Shown: positions 36,255-42,504 of the stretch, piece by piece
How the letters are laid out: every line of letters begins with the position of its first letter
Position numbering within the stretch: the stretch's first letter is position 1
From: Desulfobulbaceae bacterium
GTDB lineage: Bacteria > Desulfobacterota > Desulfobulbia > Desulfobulbales > Desulfocapsaceae
Assembly: GCA_026988015.1 (NCBI GenBank)
Contig: JALSMA010000028.1
Location: forward strand, 1-58,122
Reading direction: 5' to 3'
Length of the DNA: 58,122 bases
The notes under the pieces: generated by a model
Databases searched by the model: none
What the model saw: only the letters and a program-made list of their open reading frames with translations
Told to the model about the DNA's origin: nothing
Translations under genes and position numbers: made by a program

Positions 36255-37196
36255 TCAGTTGAGGATACTTCTGCACAATCGGCAGAATCCACCGGGAACA
36301 GTTCCCGAGGACCAATAGGATTTTCCCTGTTTATAGTCCACAAACCAGAACCCGGTAGGTTCCCGTTTTGCAGCAACAAAGACAAAAGGCTGCTCTTTTG
36401 AAAAACAGAGGTGCAGGTGGAGACCTTTCAGGCTCAGACTCGGTTCCATGAGCGACATCGCTTCTTCAAGAGTGGGTATACGCCAGTCATTATGTCCGCC
36501 AAACCCCTTCTGATTCAGGTCTTTAATGTCTCTGGTCATCTTCCTGATTGAACAGAGATCGAGTCCTGCTCTCTGCCACATCAGGCCCGTTTTTTCATCA
36601 ATGATAATGCGGGGATCCTCACTTTCTAGCAGAGAATTTTCAAAGTACCCTTTCGGGTTGATTGCTGTGTCAGGGAAGTTCCAGAGTAGGATTGACTCGT
36701 TAAGTTCGGCCTCCTCCAGAGTGCGCTGCTCCGATGGCAGGGTGACCCGTTCTCCTTTGTAAGGAGCCGCCCCGGTACTGGGAAGCGCTTCCCCAAAATC
36801 TTCACTGTCTGATTCCTCAAGGACTGTTGGGATGAGGAAGACACTATTGTTTTTCTCAATCACTTCATGGATAAGCCAGGTTTTTAAGGCGTGGTTAACA
36901 GGGAAATTATCTTTTGAGGAGAGAGTGCTTCCATGGTCGATGATGCATGCTGTCATCATATCAAGTGGTGCCAGGATTTCAGCAAGAATGTTTACAAATC
37001 GGGTGCCTCGCTCCATGAGATAAAGGCGTGGAACCTCTCCGTAGTTGTCGATGAAAAAATAGCAGATCCGTTCTCCCGTGTTGGAGAGATCATCGCGAAG
37101 CCCCTTTGCCGAGAATGTACAAAAAGCAAGATCTGGTGTCATCTCCCAGTCAATGATTGGGGCTGTGGTACTACTCAGTGCGAGTTGAGAAAACAT
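36255..37196 (-). CDS. DUF1566 (Lcl C-terminal) domain protein
   Basis: A 313-residue protein whose C-terminal third (about 200-313) is a DUF1566/Lcl domain: IIIDEKTGLMWQRAGLD, a helix with DLNQKGFGGHNDWRIPTLEE, then FWFVDYKQGKSYWSS and FCRLCRSIL. These domains occur in surface and secreted proteins and in phage-like tropism determinants, and their function is mostly unknown. The N-terminal 190 residues have no recognisable domain and no signal peptide, so a cytoplasmic location is suggested despite the usual association of the domain with the surface. There is an ATG start with only GAGG at moderate distance. Confidence 0.8.
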   Translation of the reverse strand: MFSQLALSSTTAPIIDWEMTPDLAFCTFSAKGLRDDLSNTGERICYFFIDNYGEVPRLYLMERGTRFVNILAEILAPLDMMTACIIDHGSTLSSKDNFPVNHALKTWLIHEVIEKNNSVFLIPTVLEESDSEDFGEALPSTGAAPYKGERVTLPSEQRTLEEAELNESILLWNFPDTAINPKGYFENSLLESEDPRIIIDEKTGLMWQRAGLDLCSIRKMTRDIKDLNQKGFGGHNDWRIPTLEEAMSLMEPSLSLKGLHLHLCFSKEQPFVFVAAKREPTGFWFVDYKQGKSYWSSGTVPGGFCRLCRSILN

Positions 37197-37264: not shown

Positions 37265-38671
37265 TCAAACATGCCGTATTTCGGTGTGGCCTGAAATCTC
37301 TGAATTTGTGGTGCAGATATCGCGCAGCGACAGCTTGTTTGTGTGATTGTTTCCGGTGAGGCGGGCAAAGTCCTGCAGTTCACGGGTGCAAACTTCTAGA
37401 AAATTGTGGAGCATGCTTGCGGCTTTGTCAATATCCAGCATCTTGCGTAGTTCCGGATCCTGGGTGGCGATCCCCATGGGACATTTACCGGTATTGCAGA
37501 TACGGTATTGCTGACAGCCGATGGCCATCATTGCACTGGTGCTGATTGCCACGGCATCAGCGCCAAGGGCGAGGGCTTTGGCAAAATCTGAAGAAACCCG
37601 GAGTCCACCGGTACAGATGAGGGAGACATGGAAAGCTTTTTTCTCGTTTAAAAACTTTCTGGCACGATAAATGGCAAATGGCGTGGGGATGCCAACCGAG
37701 TCTTTGACATATTTAGGGGATGCCCCGGTGCCTCCACAACGTCCGTCGAGGGTGATAAAATCGGGATCGGCATAAAGAGCGATTTCAAGATCTGCCTCGA
37801 TATGGCCTGCAGCAAATTTGATTCCAATGGGCCGGCCACAAGAGACCTCACGTAGCCATGTTACCTTCTCCCTGAGCTGCTCACGGGTTAAAATATCCTC
37901 GTAATGGGCGGGGCTGGTGATGTCGTTACCCTCGCTGAAACCACGGATTTCTGCAATTTCGCTTGTTACTTTGTTGCCGGGAAGATGGCCACCCATCCCA
38001 GGTTTTGCGGACTGGCCAAACTTTATCTCAATGGCATCGGCGTTGCGGAGATTTTGTTCGGTGACACTGTAGCGATTGGGGACGTACTCAAATATATATT
38101 TGTGGGCACTGCTCCGCGATTCAGGGAGAATGCCACCTTCTCCGGAGCCGATGGCGGTTTCCATCAGTTTGCTGCCACGCGCTAGGGCAATTTTTGCCTC
38201 CCTTGAAAGGGCTCCAAATGATATGTGGCTGATATATACAGGTGTTGCGATGAGTAATGGCTCTCTGGCATTGCGTCCGATTGTGGTTATGGTTTCCACG
38301 GGTTCATCATGATTCAGAGGGATTTTTGCCAGTTGAGCGCCCTGAATTAGAATGTCATCCCAGGAAATAACCGGTTTTCTGGTCTGCATGGGCTCGATGA
38401 TTGACTTGCCGCTGGTGGCCATGGCGTGGATATTCGCCATATACGACTCGTGGGAATCTTCGGCTTTGTCGGGCTCAAAAAGAATAACCCGTTCTTTGGT
38501 GGATTCCTCTCTATCTGCAGAGATGTCAGGACTGGAATCTGCTCTGCGCCAGAAGGGCTTACCAGCTTCACAGACCGGGCAATGCCAGTCGGGAGGCAGG
38601 TCGTTCCAGCGTACAGTTTGCCTTTCTTCGTCGTATTCGGTGTCACAGACAGAACAGATGTATTTTGACAT
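37265..38671 (-). CDS. rubredoxin fused to FMN-binding glutamate synthase-like domain
   Basis: A 468-residue protein. Residues 1-45 are a rubredoxin (Cys6, Cys9, Cys31, Cys34 in CSVC and CPVC). After a linker comes a GltB-type FMN barrel (about 110-440) with GGTGASPKYVKD, GADAVAISTSAMMAIGC and the 3Fe-4S motif CQQYRICNTGKCPMG. There is no amidotransferase domain, as in archaeal-type GltS. The fused rubredoxin could pass electrons directly to the FMN/Fe-S centre. ATG 38671 with AGGAA upstream is the start; frame-open sequence further upstream is not part of the gene. It lies 61 bases after rubrerythrin, whose natural electron donor is rubredoxin. Confidence 0.9.
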   Translation of the reverse strand: MSKYICSVCDTEYDEERQTVRWNDLPPDWHCPVCEAGKPFWRRADSSPDISADREESTKERVILFEPDKAEDSHESYMANIHAMATSGKSIIEPMQTRKPVISWDDILIQGAQLAKIPLNHDEPVETITTIGRNAREPLLIATPVYISHISFGALSREAKIALARGSKLMETAIGSGEGGILPESRSSAHKYIFEYVPNRYSVTEQNLRNADAIEIKFGQSAKPGMGGHLPGNKVTSEIAEIRGFSEGNDITSPAHYEDILTREQLREKVTWLREVSCGRPIGIKFAAGHIEADLEIALYADPDFITLDGRCGGTGASPKYVKDSVGIPTPFAIYRARKFLNEKKAFHVSLICTGGLRVSSDFAKALALGADAVAISTSAMMAIGCQQYRICNTGKCPMGIATQDPELRKMLDIDKAASMLHNFLEVCTRELQDFARLTGNNHTNKLSLRDICTTNSEISGHTEIRHV

Positions 38672-38732
38672 TGTTGGTTCCTGGTAACAACTGTGGCGGT
38701 GCCGCCAACGAGGTAAACACCGCCAAGGGGGG

Positions 38733-39254
38733 CTAGATATCCATATTGGCCGGTTCGTAATACTCTTTCGGATGCTTGCAGGCGGGGCACTTTGGTGGTG
38801 GCTCGGTTCCCTCATGGGTAAATCCACATATGGAGCATTTCCAGCGAATGGGTTTTTCCCGCTTAAAAACGGTACCATCTTTCAGCATATCCAAGCAGCG
38901 CTGGTAGCGGTCACGATGGTGTGCTTCCACCTTGGCAATCTGCTTAAACAGTATGGCTGCCTCCATGTTGCCCTCTTCTTCTGCATCTTTTGCAAAGGTG
39001 GGGTACATCTCTGTGGTTTCATAGTTTTCGCCATTGATTGCCTCCTGAAGGTTGGCTGCGGTGTCACTAATTCCATTCAGAAGATTAAAATGATCCTTTG
39101 CGTGGCGTTCCTCATTGGCGGCAGACTCTTCAAAAATCTTTGCAATATAGTGATATCCTTCCTTTCTGGCAACTTTTGCGAAAAAGGTATACATATTTCT
39201 GGCCTGTGATTCTCCGGCAAATGCTGCCTTCAGGTTTTCGGTTGTTTTGCTCAT
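38733..39254 (-). CDS. rbr: rubrerythrin
   Basis: A 173-residue non-heme iron protein that reduces hydrogen peroxide in anaerobes. The four-helix ferritin-like domain has the two ExxH-type metal motifs, ESAANEERHAKDHF and KVEAHHRDRYQ, plus FAGESQARNMYTFFA. The C-terminal rubredoxin-like domain has CSICGF and CPACKHP. ATG 39254 is preceded by GGAGGAG. The promoter region contains a Fur/PerR-type box (39339-39353). The next gene carries a rubredoxin domain fused to an FMN glutamate-synthase-like domain, so the pair may form a peroxide-stress unit. Confidence 0.95.
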   Translation of the reverse strand: MSKTTENLKAAFAGESQARNMYTFFAKVARKEGYHYIAKIFEESAANEERHAKDHFNLLNGISDTAANLQEAINGENYETTEMYPTFAKDAEEEGNMEAAILFKQIAKVEAHHRDRYQRCLDMLKDGTVFKREKPIRWKCSICGFTHEGTEPPPKCPACKHPKEYYEPANMDI

Positions 39255-39326: not shown

Positions 39327-39354
39327 AATGTATCATTTTGATAATTATTTTCAA
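39327..39354 (-). promoter_or_regulatory. promoter of the rubrerythrin gene overlapped by Fur-family box
   Basis: Minus-strand TTGAAA (39354-39349), 16 bases, TACATT (39332-39327). The spacer and -35 are covered by the 15-base box at 39339-39353, so a bound repressor would occlude polymerase. Confidence 0.5.
39339..39353 (-). promoter_or_regulatory. Fur/PerR-type operator
   Basis: TGATAATTATTTTCA matches the 7-1-7 inverted repeat TGATAATNATTATCA at 14 of 15 positions. It is placed 85 bases before the rubrerythrin start and over the predicted promoter. PerR is the likelier member because rubrerythrin genes are known PerR targets in sulfate reducers; this assignment is inferred. Confidence 0.62.
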
Positions 39355-39388: not shown

Positions 39389-41671
39389 TCAGCAGGTCAG
39401 TGTTCTGTATATTTCCGGCATCCGCAGGGGAAGCTTTCTGACATCATCGATGAAAATATAGTTCGCCGGCCCATGCATATGCTTCATATATTCTTTTGCA
39501 TGATGATCTATGGTGATACAGAAGGGGTGAATGTCAGCTATCCTGGCTTCAAGGAGAGCGTGCCTGGTGTCTTCAATGGCGTATTCTCCCTTATAGGCAT
39601 CATAATCTTCGGGTTTTCCGTCGCTCAGGGTGATGAGAAGACGAACTTTTGCATCAATATCTTTCAAGATCTCTATGGAATGACGAATGGCGGGTCCCAT
39701 TCTAGTATATTCACCAGGGGCAATGGAACCTATCCTCTGTCTCACTGCTGCACCAAATGGTTCGGTGAGGTGTTTGATATGGAAGAACTCACATCGTGAA
39801 CGGCGCATTCCGGAAAACCCATAGATGCCGTACCTGTCTCCCAGTACCTCCATGGCCTCTGCCATGAGTACCAGGGATTCTTTTAAGGCGTTATTGACCC
39901 AACCGGCAGTGGAGTTTGACATATCCACCAGAAAGAGAACTGCGATATCTCGAGAGTCGCGTTTGAGACGGATAAAAAGCCGATCCGACGGGGGAATTCC
40001 GGCATGGGAGTCTGAGAGGGATTCAACAAGGGAATCAAAATCGATGTCATCACCTTCTCGTTGCCGTCGTACGAAACGCTCTTGGCTGCGCAGCATTTCA
40101 AACTGATGTCGTAACCGGAGACTTAAGCCATGATATTTCTCCAAGGTGTTTTTGATAAATGACGAATGGACAGGAGAGAGTTCTTTACAATGGAGACTGC
40201 ACCAGTTTTTGCGAAAACCCTGTCTTCGATAATCCCACTCATCGTAAACAATGACGTCTCTATTGACAGTAAAAGATTCTTCAGGAGGTTCTGGAGATGC
40301 CGTCTCCAGCATCTTCTGCCCCGCCTTTCCTACTGCTGCTGAAAGAAAACGTGCTGGTGTTTGCCCAAATTCATCAAAAAATTTTTTACTGAAATCTGCA
40401 AGTTCTTGGGGAAGAGTAATCTCTTGATTATTTATGGTGACCAATAGGGGGGCAGCTTTCTCCTGATCTGCGGTGCGCACAAGTTCACTATCCATGATCA
40501 TGGTGACATCGGATTCTGCAGTGCCTTCAGCCATATTTTTTTTCTCATCCTTTTTGTAAATTTCGAGAAGTTTTTCACGCGAAAGTGAGAGTAGGTGGCT
40601 GGTCATCAGGTCGATGAGCTGTTCTCCCAACTTTTGCTTCGCCGCTGTTCTGGCGGCAGCCACAGCGTTCAATCTGAAGTGTCCTTGAAAAGAGAATCGC
40701 TCAAACGGCAGGTAGTTAGTGTGGTGTGGTTCAAGGATTTTGTGGAGCCTGGCAGTGAGAGCTACTGAGTTATTGGCTGTTGCTTTCCCATAAATATAAG
40801 GTTCCGCCTCTTTTTCTGTGAGAAGATGTGAAAGGGTGGTAAGGATATCTTTTTTGTCTGCGATTACAGCATGCTGAATTCCGGCCAGGGGATGGTTGCT
40901 GTTTGCCTGCTTGAGACAGGGGAAAATCTGTTTTGCCGAGGCTCGCAGCAGTCCTGGAAATTCTTGTTCAAGAAAGATCCGTACTCTGAGGGACTCGAGA
41001 ACGTGGTAAATATCCCTAGCGAGGGCGGGATTATCAAAGCCATTGAGATAGTGTCGTAATTGCAGGAATTCGCTTGGCACCTGATTCTCGGAGAGCTGTG
41101 GCTCGACGGTGAAAATCCCGCAGTGTATGAAGCCCCATTGAAAGGTAAGGATAAGTTTATAGTAGAGAAAGTTGTCACTGCTTTCTGAGAAAAAAGAGAG
41201 TTTTTCAGGAAGATAGATACTGGTAGTGTCAGTGTAGATTTGCCTGGAATAACAGATTTGCAGGTCTTTCCGGGCTATGCCACGTATGTAAGGGAGGAGC
41301 TTTTTCTCGATGGAATCAAAACTGAGTCCTCCACTTCCCCCCAGCTGTGCAAGGTAGTTTGGGATGTCATCAGTCATGAAACGCTGGGCCGATCGGAGAC
41401 CATTCGTTTCATAGTGGTCAAGAGTTATGCTTATCCAGCGGGGAATCTGCTCAAGGCTGAGCTGTTTCAAGGTTTCCGGGAGCAGACGGAGAAAGTCAAA
41501 ACAGAGGGAATTAGAAACGGGCCAGATCATCGGGATGTGGCTTAGTGCTGCCTCGCAGATATGATCACTTTCATCGATAAAAGGTTCGAGTACCTCCTCA
41601 ACATCCCACTCATTAGGGATATCCGGGGCAACTAATGCATAAAAACGTTCCGTGAGTTTTGCAAGTTTCAT
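39389..41671 (-). CDS. VWA-domain protein of the NorD/CbbO type
   Basis: A 760-residue soluble protein. The C-terminal von Willebrand A domain (from about 560) has an intact MIDAS: LVDMSNSTAG (DxSxS), the conserved Thr/Gly region MGPAIRHS and TLSDGKPEDY. The long N-terminal region, helical and unlike other domains, is typical of NorD/CbbO proteins. These work with a MoxR-type AAA+ ATPase to insert or remodel metal centres of target enzymes (Rubisco for CbbQO, nitric oxide reductase for NorQD). The AAA+ partner is encoded 20 bases upstream. No Rubisco or NO-reductase gene is in the window, so the client is unknown. It is longer than typical NorD (about 630 residues). Confidence 0.88.
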   Translation of the reverse strand: MKLAKLTERFYALVAPDIPNEWDVEEVLEPFIDESDHICEAALSHIPMIWPVSNSLCFDFLRLLPETLKQLSLEQIPRWISITLDHYETNGLRSAQRFMTDDIPNYLAQLGGSGGLSFDSIEKKLLPYIRGIARKDLQICYSRQIYTDTTSIYLPEKLSFFSESSDNFLYYKLILTFQWGFIHCGIFTVEPQLSENQVPSEFLQLRHYLNGFDNPALARDIYHVLESLRVRIFLEQEFPGLLRASAKQIFPCLKQANSNHPLAGIQHAVIADKKDILTTLSHLLTEKEAEPYIYGKATANNSVALTARLHKILEPHHTNYLPFERFSFQGHFRLNAVAAARTAAKQKLGEQLIDLMTSHLLSLSREKLLEIYKKDEKKNMAEGTAESDVTMIMDSELVRTADQEKAAPLLVTINNQEITLPQELADFSKKFFDEFGQTPARFLSAAVGKAGQKMLETASPEPPEESFTVNRDVIVYDEWDYRRQGFRKNWCSLHCKELSPVHSSFIKNTLEKYHGLSLRLRHQFEMLRSQERFVRRQREGDDIDFDSLVESLSDSHAGIPPSDRLFIRLKRDSRDIAVLFLVDMSNSTAGWVNNALKESLVLMAEAMEVLGDRYGIYGFSGMRRSRCEFFHIKHLTEPFGAAVRQRIGSIAPGEYTRMGPAIRHSIEILKDIDAKVRLLITLSDGKPEDYDAYKGEYAIEDTRHALLEARIADIHPFCITIDHHAKEYMKHMHGPANYIFIDDVRKLPLRMPEIYRTLTC

Positions 41672-41691
41672 ACTGATATCCCATGGGGCTG

Positions 41692-42504
41692 TCAGAATAT
41701 GGAGCTGACCATTTCCTGCAGGGCAGCCAGCATTTCAGGATCGTCACTCAAGGGCTCCAATAGTGCAGCCCGACATGCTGCATGGATATCAATTCCATCC
41801 TGAACCAGTTGGCCTGTCTGAATGAGGAGTCTGGTGGATGCACCTTCTGCAAGCCCTGAATCCTTCAGGCTCCTGGTCATTCCGGCAAGTTTAACCAGTG
41901 AGTACGCAAGTTCCGTGTCAACTCCACCTTCTCGTATTACAATCTCAGTTTCACGTTCAGGTTCTGGATAGTCAAAGGAAATGGCCACAAAACGTTGTCT
42001 GGTTGATGGTTTCAAATCTTTTAAGACACTCTGGTAACCGGGATTGTAGGAGACGCTGATCATAAATTCCTGTGGAGCACTGAGGAGTTCTCCGAGCTTT
42101 TCCACGGGGAGTTCACGGCGATCATCTGCAAGAGGGTGAATAACCACAGTGGTGTCTTTTCTAGCTTCAACGATCTCGTCGAGATAACAGATTGCTCCTG
42201 CCCGAACTGCCAGAGTAAGAGGACCATCAGTCCAGACAGCTTCACCGGAACGAATGAGGTAGCGACCGACCAGGTCGCTGGTAGAAAGATCATCATGGCA
42301 TGAGACGGTGATAAGCGGGCGTTGAAGTTTCCAGGCCAGGTATTGCATAAACCTGGTTTTACCACATCCCGTTGGTCCCTTGAGAAGCAGGGGCAGTTTG
42401 TTTTTATATGCGGAAAGAGCTATTTCCATCTCATTTCCTGAGGCGAGATAGTATGGCTCCTTTGTGATGAGGTGTTCTTCCAGGCGCTGTTTTATGGTTC
42501 CCAT
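41692..42504 (-). CDS. MoxR-type AAA+ ATPase, CbbQ/NorQ-like
   Basis: A 270-residue ATPase with Walker A GPTGCGKT at about 43-50, Walker B AICYLDEIVEARKD near 107, sensor 1 VSYNPGYQ near 150 and the CbbQ/NorQ C-terminal domain. The DLVGRYLI stretch and PLADDRRELPVEK match the family's pore-loop region. It hydrolyses ATP to drive conformational change of a client together with its VWA partner encoded downstream. ATG 42504 is preceded by AAGGAG. These two genes form an isolated pair. The gap to metW (128 bases) has no recognisable feature. Confidence 0.92.
   Translation of the reverse strand: MGTIKQRLEEHLITKEPYYLASGNEMEIALSAYKNKLPLLLKGPTGCGKTRFMQYLAWKLQRPLITVSCHDDLSTSDLVGRYLIRSGEAVWTDGPLTLAVRAGAICYLDEIVEARKDTTVVIHPLADDRRELPVEKLGELLSAPQEFMISVSYNPGYQSVLKDLKPSTRQRFVAISFDYPEPERETEIVIREGGVDTELAYSLVKLAGMTRSLKDSGLAEGASTRLLIQTGQLVQDGIDIHAACRAALLEPLSDDPEMLAALQEMVSSIF

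Follow-up and report, generated by a model that had tools for sequence, protein, structure and literature searches.

Which protein hands electrons to rubrerythrin is, to our knowledge, unsettled in many anaerobes, and the locus described here raises the question of whether a rubredoxin joined to a glutamate-synthase-type barrel may do so. In Clostridioides difficile the reductase of rubrerythrin is likewise unsettled, according to the available text of a study of a protein of this kind (PMC11980386). The window (the whole stretch of 58,122 nucleotides that was analyzed, from a Desulfobulbaceae bacterium) holds exactly two genes between positions 37265 and 39254, both on the minus strand. A preliminary description had read them as a rubrerythrin next to a fusion of rubredoxin with an FMN/3Fe-4S glutamate synthase-like domain that lacks the glutaminase part, and both points were confirmed. 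The features of this region are as follows:

38733..39254, minus strand: rubrerythrin, 173 aa, with a C-terminal rubredoxin-like tail (PF02915, PF21349, NF045767)
38672..38732, minus strand: intergenic gap of 61 nt, rubrerythrin to fusion (sequence and terminator scan)
37265..38671, minus strand: rubredoxin - glutamate-synthase-barrel fusion, CD0828-like, 468 aa (PF00301, PF01645, AlphaFold2 model)
38558..38665, minus strand: N-terminal rubredoxin domain of the fusion, Cys 6, 9, 31 and 34 (PF00301 and alignment)
37349..38341, minus strand: FMN-type glutamate-synthase barrel of the fusion, with C386-x5-C392-x4-C397 for a [3Fe-4S] cluster (PF01645, residue table)

The first gene was assigned to rubrerythrin by its diiron ferritin-like domain (PF02915, 95 bits), its rubredoxin-like tail (PF21349, 50.2 bits) and the NCBIfam equivalog NF045767 (206.1 bits against a cut-off of 200). 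In the second gene, residues 3-38 matched rubredoxin (PF00301, 26.6 bits, cut-off 23) and residues 111-441 matched Glu_synthase (PF01645, 344.6 bits); the only further Pfam matches at E ≤ 0.001 were two weak FMN-barrel families. No glutaminase, GXGXG or NAD(P)H domain was matched by Pfam, nor was the FAD/NAD(P)H-binding pyridine nucleotide-disulfide oxidoreductase domain of NROR-type enzymes, and the fusion was not classed with the latter. Its longest open reading frame begins at 38878, within rubrerythrin; this start was rejected because it would overlap that gene, and the ATG at 38671 was adopted by homology (close relatives begin there) together with a Shine-Dalgarno-like AGGAA. A scan of the coding (minus) strand found no terminator-like site in the 61-nt gap. 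The window encodes the modules as two separate genes and not as a rubredoxin-GltS-rubrerythrin single chain.

An AlphaFold2 model of the fusion (mean pLDDT 82.2, 34 sequences) was compared with solved structures. The best Foldseek match was a glutamate synthase (7mfm, E 1.1e-22). By a second structure comparison, glutamate synthase 1ea0 aligned over 380 residues with Z 37.8 and rmsd 2.6, and FMN 2-hydroxyacid enzymes scored below it (Z 26 and lower). The connection between rubredoxin and barrel, residues 47-64, had pLDDT values under 50, which in this model is in line with a mobile tether; residues 94-98 and 221-224, with K223 inside the latter, were also under 50.

Relatives were collected by a contig scan of genomes, in which the best 80 of 570 confirmed relatives (51-81% identical) were kept; these are the most query-like relatives, and counts on them are no census. 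The best 80 derive from Thermodesulfobacteriota, Bacillota, methanogens and other archaea, Chlorobiota, Planctomycetota, Acidobacteriota, Zixiibacteriota and more, and the closest named relative among the matches listed is from a Desulfocapsa MAG (L035, 81%). Removal of three near-copies left a non-redundant set of 77. The rubredoxin four-cysteine pattern was found to precede the barrel in 75 of the best 80, a count that includes L067, where a stand-alone rubredoxin gene stands directly before a stand-alone barrel gene. L114 retains three of the four cysteines, and L070 and L077 have none. In these two Planctomycetota a membrane-helix-like N-terminus on the barrel takes the place of rubredoxin, and L077 also has a rubredoxin fused to a membrane protein two ORFs upstream of the barrel. 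In the Bathyarchaeota L082 (9416-11314) and L083, two CDGSH stretches and a Fer4_19 domain replace rubredoxin (L082 by Pfam, L083 by eye). Two loci from the family and genus of the window (L009, L010) encode a short rubredoxin-like and barrel protein, with no rubrerythrin found; the neighbors of the barrel are a membrane protein and proteins that contain haem-type CxxCH motifs, and in L010 the barrel gene is split into two frames. In the methanogen L066, a rubredoxin fused to a look-alike of thiamine-diphosphate enzymes (acetolactate synthase-like, by eye) adjoins the rubredoxin-barrel gene.

The preliminary description had asked for a check of residues for the use of 2-oxoglutarate and glutamine-derived ammonia. 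Residues were tabulated for 81 rows (the window and the best 80 of 570) and compared with 16 GltB and 7 archaeal-type synthases. The [3Fe-4S] cysteines C386, C392 and C397 are present in 81/81 rows and invariant in both reference groups; K217, Q220 and R243 are likewise found in 81/81 rows, 16/16 GltB and 7/7 archaeal-type synthases, and K223 in 79/81, 16/16 and 7/7. Counted by hand on the alignment, the Synechocystis equivalents are K966, Q969, K972 and R992 for K217, Q220, K223 and R243, and C1137, C1143 and C1148 for the cysteines. We take these four residues and the cluster cysteines to be positions that touch FMN, 2-oxoglutarate or the cluster. By contrast, E292 and R311, present in 81/81 rows, are absent from GltB and archaeal-type synthases: the E292 position is V in 16/16 GltB and A or S in the archaeal type, and the R311 position is mostly Y in GltB and I or V in the archaeal type. 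D309 (81/81 rows) is S in GltB and common to the archaeal type, M226 occurs in 72/81 rows in place of E or D, and H229 occurs in 73/81 rows, at a position that is Q (12) or H (4) in GltB. The FMN chemistry is thus probably kept, judging from these residues. E292 and R311 are particular to the family, so the substrate may have shifted, perhaps to something other than glutamate.

The genome of the window organism (3.15 Mb, 99.8% complete) was found to hold two glutamate-synthase barrels. One is the fusion; the other belongs to a set of three genes on a different contig. This set includes a ferredoxin-FMN synthase of 546 aa (PF01645 and Fer4) and a 787-aa protein with GXGXG and pyridine-nucleotide oxidoreductase domains. 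In the glutaminase position lies a 380-aa gene (L141:11319-12461, contig C19) for which neither a Pfam match, even at E 10, nor a relative of solved structure was found. The sole support for a glutaminase role of this gene is remote similarity (25% over 67%, E 1e-7) to a protein that is annotated as a glutamine amidotransferase, and the glutamate-synthase-like set is to this extent likely complete. A role of the fusion as the glutamate synthase of the cell was rejected on account of this separate set, and the fusion is probably not the housekeeping enzyme. Four rubrerythrin and three rubredoxin matches, those of the window included, were found in the genome, and the fusion is not its sole rubredoxin. 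Another contig carries an oxidative-stress cluster of a Fur-family regulator, a rubrerythrin, an AhpC-type peroxiredoxin, desulfoferrodoxin, a double rubredoxin and a flavodiiron-type protein.

Linkage of the fusion gene to rubrerythrin, which the preliminary description had proposed to look for, was found in part of the relatives. With seven rubrerythrin queries, rubrerythrin was detected within 1 kb or in the same frame in 34 of the best 80 of 570 loci. It lies within 300 nt or is fused in 33 of these 34, the exception being the C. difficile locus with two genes between; in a 35th linked locus (L103) the contig ends just inside a fused rubrerythrin. In the 77 non-redundant loci of this sample, 33 are linked (17 with rubrerythrin upstream, 11 downstream and 5 fused), and so are 22 of the 58 loci whose flanks exceed 1 kb on each side. 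The rubrerythrin is on the same strand as the fusion gene in 34/35 hits among the best 80, with a second copy in L044 as the exception. Across 1.09 Mb of flanks of these loci, 31/32 unfused rubrerythrin hits fall within 1 kb, a zone that makes up 13.7% of the flanking DNA (binomial 4e-26, a descriptive value because the loci are related). Linked loci of the best 80 span at least 10 phyla by NCBI rank and an Aminicenantes record. On a quick tree of the best 80, built with no bootstrap and no mixture model and flagged for a long branch near L009, linkage changes state 16 times, and the window's own subclade is 11/11 linked (SH-aLRT 93, not starred).

The other 44 of the 77 non-redundant loci have no rubrerythrin within 1 kb, and unlinked rows of the best 80 include 8/8 Methanobacteriota and 23/34 Bacillota. 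Transfer to rubrerythrin had been said to be in doubt if the fusion were common without a rubrerythrin neighbor and a fully competent classical glutamate synthase: the former was observed, and the latter was not. In the organism's own class, 32 of 257 genomes match the fusion at E 1e-60 and 15 carry it at full length (over 760 bits). Rubrerythrin adjoins the full-length gene in 11 of these 15 (the window's own genome, L004, L006, L036, L142-L147 and L150; L036 was counted as the same record as G107 since the coordinates agree) and not in L148, L149, L151 and L152, some of which are on short contigs. The adjacency is thus not due to chance. In the 17 genomes without a full-length copy, rubrerythrin was adjacent in 0 of 5 loci examined (L153-L157, one of them a short contig). 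Whole-genome co-occurrence was uninformative, as rubrerythrin was present in 15/15 genomes tested.

When five ORFs on each side were clustered (greedy ORF calling), only rubrerythrin (26) and Fur/PerR (12) formed neighbor clusters in more than 4 of the best 80 loci. A glutaminase or GltD partner that travels with the fusion was considered and rejected, being absent from these clusters. In 15 of the best 80 loci (13 of the 77 non-redundant), a gene of the Fur/PerR family is located no more than 1 kb upstream. Two features of the window bear on regulation and on the extent of the unit:

39339..39353, minus strand: Fur/PerR-type 7-1-7 palindrome TGAAAATAATTATCA, one mismatch to TGATAATNATTATCA
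36255..37196, minus strand: next gene, 313 aa, DVU0772-family N-terminus and Lcl_C domain (Pfam/NCBIfam), directly downstream of the fusion

The palindrome lies 85-99 nt before the rubrerythrin start and overlaps a promoter-like site (39354-39327, 9/12). It is the sole match in the window at up to two mismatches, where 0.27 are expected; 25/100 shuffles hold at least one, and no such box was found in the 300 nt before rbr of 8 relatives. It is suggestive only, as a candidate Fur/PerR site. Desulfotalea psychrophila is presumably a relative of the window organism. PerR sites proposed for that species are similar in make-up to the palindrome, in the part of the report available (PMC545781). The downstream gene is a possible third gene of the unit; a look-alike, compared by eye, follows the fusion in L004, and the literature search found no paper on DVU0772 together with PerR. 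Elsewhere in the window, a NorQ/CbbQ-type AAA ATPase (41692-42504) stands beside a 760-aa protein for which no Pfam or NCBIfam match was found, and the pair (39389-42504) looks like a MoxR/von Willebrand pair.

Natural fusions that unite rubredoxin, barrel and rubrerythrin were detected in Clostridia. L091, L101, L108 and L111 each carry PF01645, PF02915 and PF21349 in a single open frame of 698-721 aa. When 391 genomes from the class to which the L101 genome belongs were searched and two candidates per genome scored at E 1e-100, six one-chain frames of 699-720 aa were obtained; none contains a stop, and one of them is that of the query. In all, nine distinct single chains of about 700 aa have the order rubredoxin - barrel - rubrerythrin and, in the alignment of nine, the other sequences are 73-80% identical to L101; all have N-terminal CxxC pairs, barrel and rubrerythrin, and a further CxxC pair between the latter two is found in eight and missing in L111. 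The junctions vary in length and sequence, which makes an assembly error common to all of them unlikely. Among the relatives examined, the single chain was found only in Clostridia. The predicted structure of the tri-domain protein (pLDDT 47.2) was of too low quality for contacts among its modules to be assessed. A 750-aa protein of Faecalicatena orotica (L197:1030-3282, genome G267) joins the [FeFe]-hydrogenase domains PF02906 and PF02256 to a rubredoxin-rubrerythrin block at its end (PF21349, PF02915), and this block shares 45.5% identity over 246 columns with that of L101. The same block is therefore carried by two different donor modules.

The C. difficile relative (L072) is 54.3% identical to the fusion over 481 columns and is taken to be CD0828 (CD630_08280), a gene also mentioned in the available parts of PMC8546684 and PMC11481553. 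As described in the accessible text of its study (PMC11980386), CD0828 belongs to a PerR-controlled rbr operon and is required for survival of peroxide, a need published for the CD0828-type fusion in C. difficile only. Mutants of rbr, sor and CD0828 alike lost 3-5 logs on H2O2; those of CD0828 and rbr showed matching behavior under H2O2, in air and at 4% O2, apart from a difference at 4% O2 in one background, and menadione affected the sor mutant only. Purified CD0828 was reduced by NADH fully but slowly, and faster with FMN, and its reduction of rubrerythrin with NADH and FMN was slow (about 200 s). Its authors considered it unlikely to be an efficient rubrerythrin donor in vivo and left its function open. 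The protein had been produced in aerobic culture and contained 1.2 Fe per monomer, and it benefited from addition of FMN (PMC11980386). NADH and NADPH are the only donors named in the donor section of that study, and 'L-glutamate' and 'oxoglutarate' are absent from the main text. Our literature search found no published measurement of glutamate oxidation by the CD0828-type family and, with coverage mostly outside subscription journals, no paper on glutamate as a donor to rubrerythrin.

Taken together, we consider it probable that rubrerythrin and the fusion form a peroxide-reducing pair, in which the barrel loads rubrerythrin through rubredoxin, most likely from glutamate. The barrel, with its FMN and [3Fe-4S] cluster, would take electrons from a small donor and pass them to the fusion's own N-terminal rubredoxin and on to rubrerythrin, which would reduce H2O2 to water. 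The donor would be L-glutamate or a near amino acid, oxidized at FMN to the imino acid and released as 2-oxoglutarate and ammonia, i.e., glutamate synthase in reverse. That electrons are directed to rubrerythrin seems a reasonably good bet, and the preliminary description had already raised such a path: linkage (33/77 non-redundant relatives from the best 80), the nine one-chain proteins and the CD0828 genetics (PMC11980386, available text) speak for it. Against it are the slow transfer by CD0828 in vitro, the 44/77 relatives with no nearby rubrerythrin, the peroxide sensitivity of the sor mutant and the difference between CD0828 and rbr mutants at 4% O2 in one background. Glutamate is put forward tentatively; it or a near amino acid is our first choice because no NAD(P)H domain was matched and the acid-binding pocket is kept. 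The general form of this proposal, a glutamate-driven, NAD(P)H-independent peroxidase of anaerobes encoded by a gene pair in many phyla and forming a single self-contained enzyme of about 700 aa in gut Clostridia, is offered a little more tentatively still.

Rubredoxin usually has a potential near 0 mV and rubrerythrin one well above, and the 2-oxoglutarate/glutamate couple is near -120 mV. In glutamate synthase, FMN is near -240 mV and the [3Fe-4S] cluster near -280 mV, or -190 mV with 2-oxoglutarate, according to the available text of PMC8097209. By these values, flow from glutamate through FMN, cluster, rubredoxin and rubrerythrin to H2O2 would be downhill overall and rubredoxin-driven synthesis of glutamate uphill; the first step taken alone, in which glutamate reduces a flavin at -240 mV, would be uphill if the flavin potential were not raised in this family.

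The main rival to glutamate as donor is ferredoxin or NADH. The barrel would then act as a rubredoxin reductase of a new type that draws on a general carrier, either NADH or reduced ferredoxin, with its amino-acid site a relic and rubrerythrin still the recipient. The complete reduction of CD0828 by NADH, accelerated by FMN (PMC11980386), and the feeding of the related Fd-GltS by ferredoxin (PMC8097209), both from the available texts, argue for this reading, which we nonetheless hold to be rather unlikely: NADH-driven transfer by CD0828 was slow, Pfam matched no NAD(P)H-binding domain in the fusion, and the residues assumed to form the flavin and 2-oxoglutarate site are kept in nearly all of the 81 rows. 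2-Oxoglutarate is a peroxide scavenger, and the fusion might protect from peroxide through 2-oxoglutarate or glutamate pools without contact with rubrerythrin, linkage being co-regulation only. The unlinked 44/77 would suit such a role, which the authors of the CD0828 study kept open (PMC11980386, available text). It appears improbable given that one-chain fusions with rubrerythrin exist and that the rubredoxin pattern before the barrel in 75 of the best 80 implies electron transfer. The opposite direction, also raised in the preliminary description, has rubredoxin feeding the barrel for synthesis of glutamate from 2-oxoglutarate and free ammonia. Retention of the presumed flavin and 2-oxoglutarate residues speaks for this; the separate glutamate-synthase-like set, the fusion's lack of a matched glutaminase domain, the stress-gene neighbors among the best 80 and the high potential of rubredoxin weigh against it, and we regard it as very improbable.

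To return to the peroxide-reducing pair, the one-chain fusions point to the barrel as the donor of rubrerythrin and suggest a donor beyond those reported tried. As the one-chain proteins are self-contained, the whole electron chain can be measured without guessing a partner, and the donor question is testable by a simple assay. Should glutamate be the donor, there would be a direct tie between amino-acid pools and peroxide defence.

Compared with known systems, the fusion has the FMN barrel and three [3Fe-4S] cysteines of a classical glutamate synthase and lacks matches (Pfam) to its glutaminase and GXGXG domains. It shares with GltB (PDB 1ea0, 1ofd) the barrel fold, the cluster cysteines and the K/Q/K/R residues, and differs by the added rubredoxin and by E292 and R311 of its own. 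HydR of C. perfringens, an [FeFe] hydrogenase-rubrerythrin chimera, couples H2 oxidation to H2O2 reduction, as stated in the available text of PMC11926857; the L197 protein resembles it. Like the tri-domain relatives, HydR unites a donor module with rubredoxin centres and rubrerythrin in a single polypeptide; its donor is a hydrogenase, not a glutamate-synthase barrel, and the modules of the window are two genes. The three-module fusion with the barrel was absent from the literature found (coverage mostly outside subscription journals). The closest parallel is CD0828, with which the fusion shares a rubredoxin at the N-terminus and, after it, a GltS barrel that bears C-x5-C-x4-C. At the L072 locus, rbr, a Fur/PerR-family gene and a desulfoferrodoxin-like gene all lie within 1 kb upstream; by contrast, in the window rbr directly precedes the fusion, neither perR nor sor intervening, and the DVU0772/Lcl_C gene is downstream. 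The breadth of linkage and the one-chain fusions do not appear in the papers found, and the window fusion belongs to a kind of protein of which one case, CD0828, has been studied.
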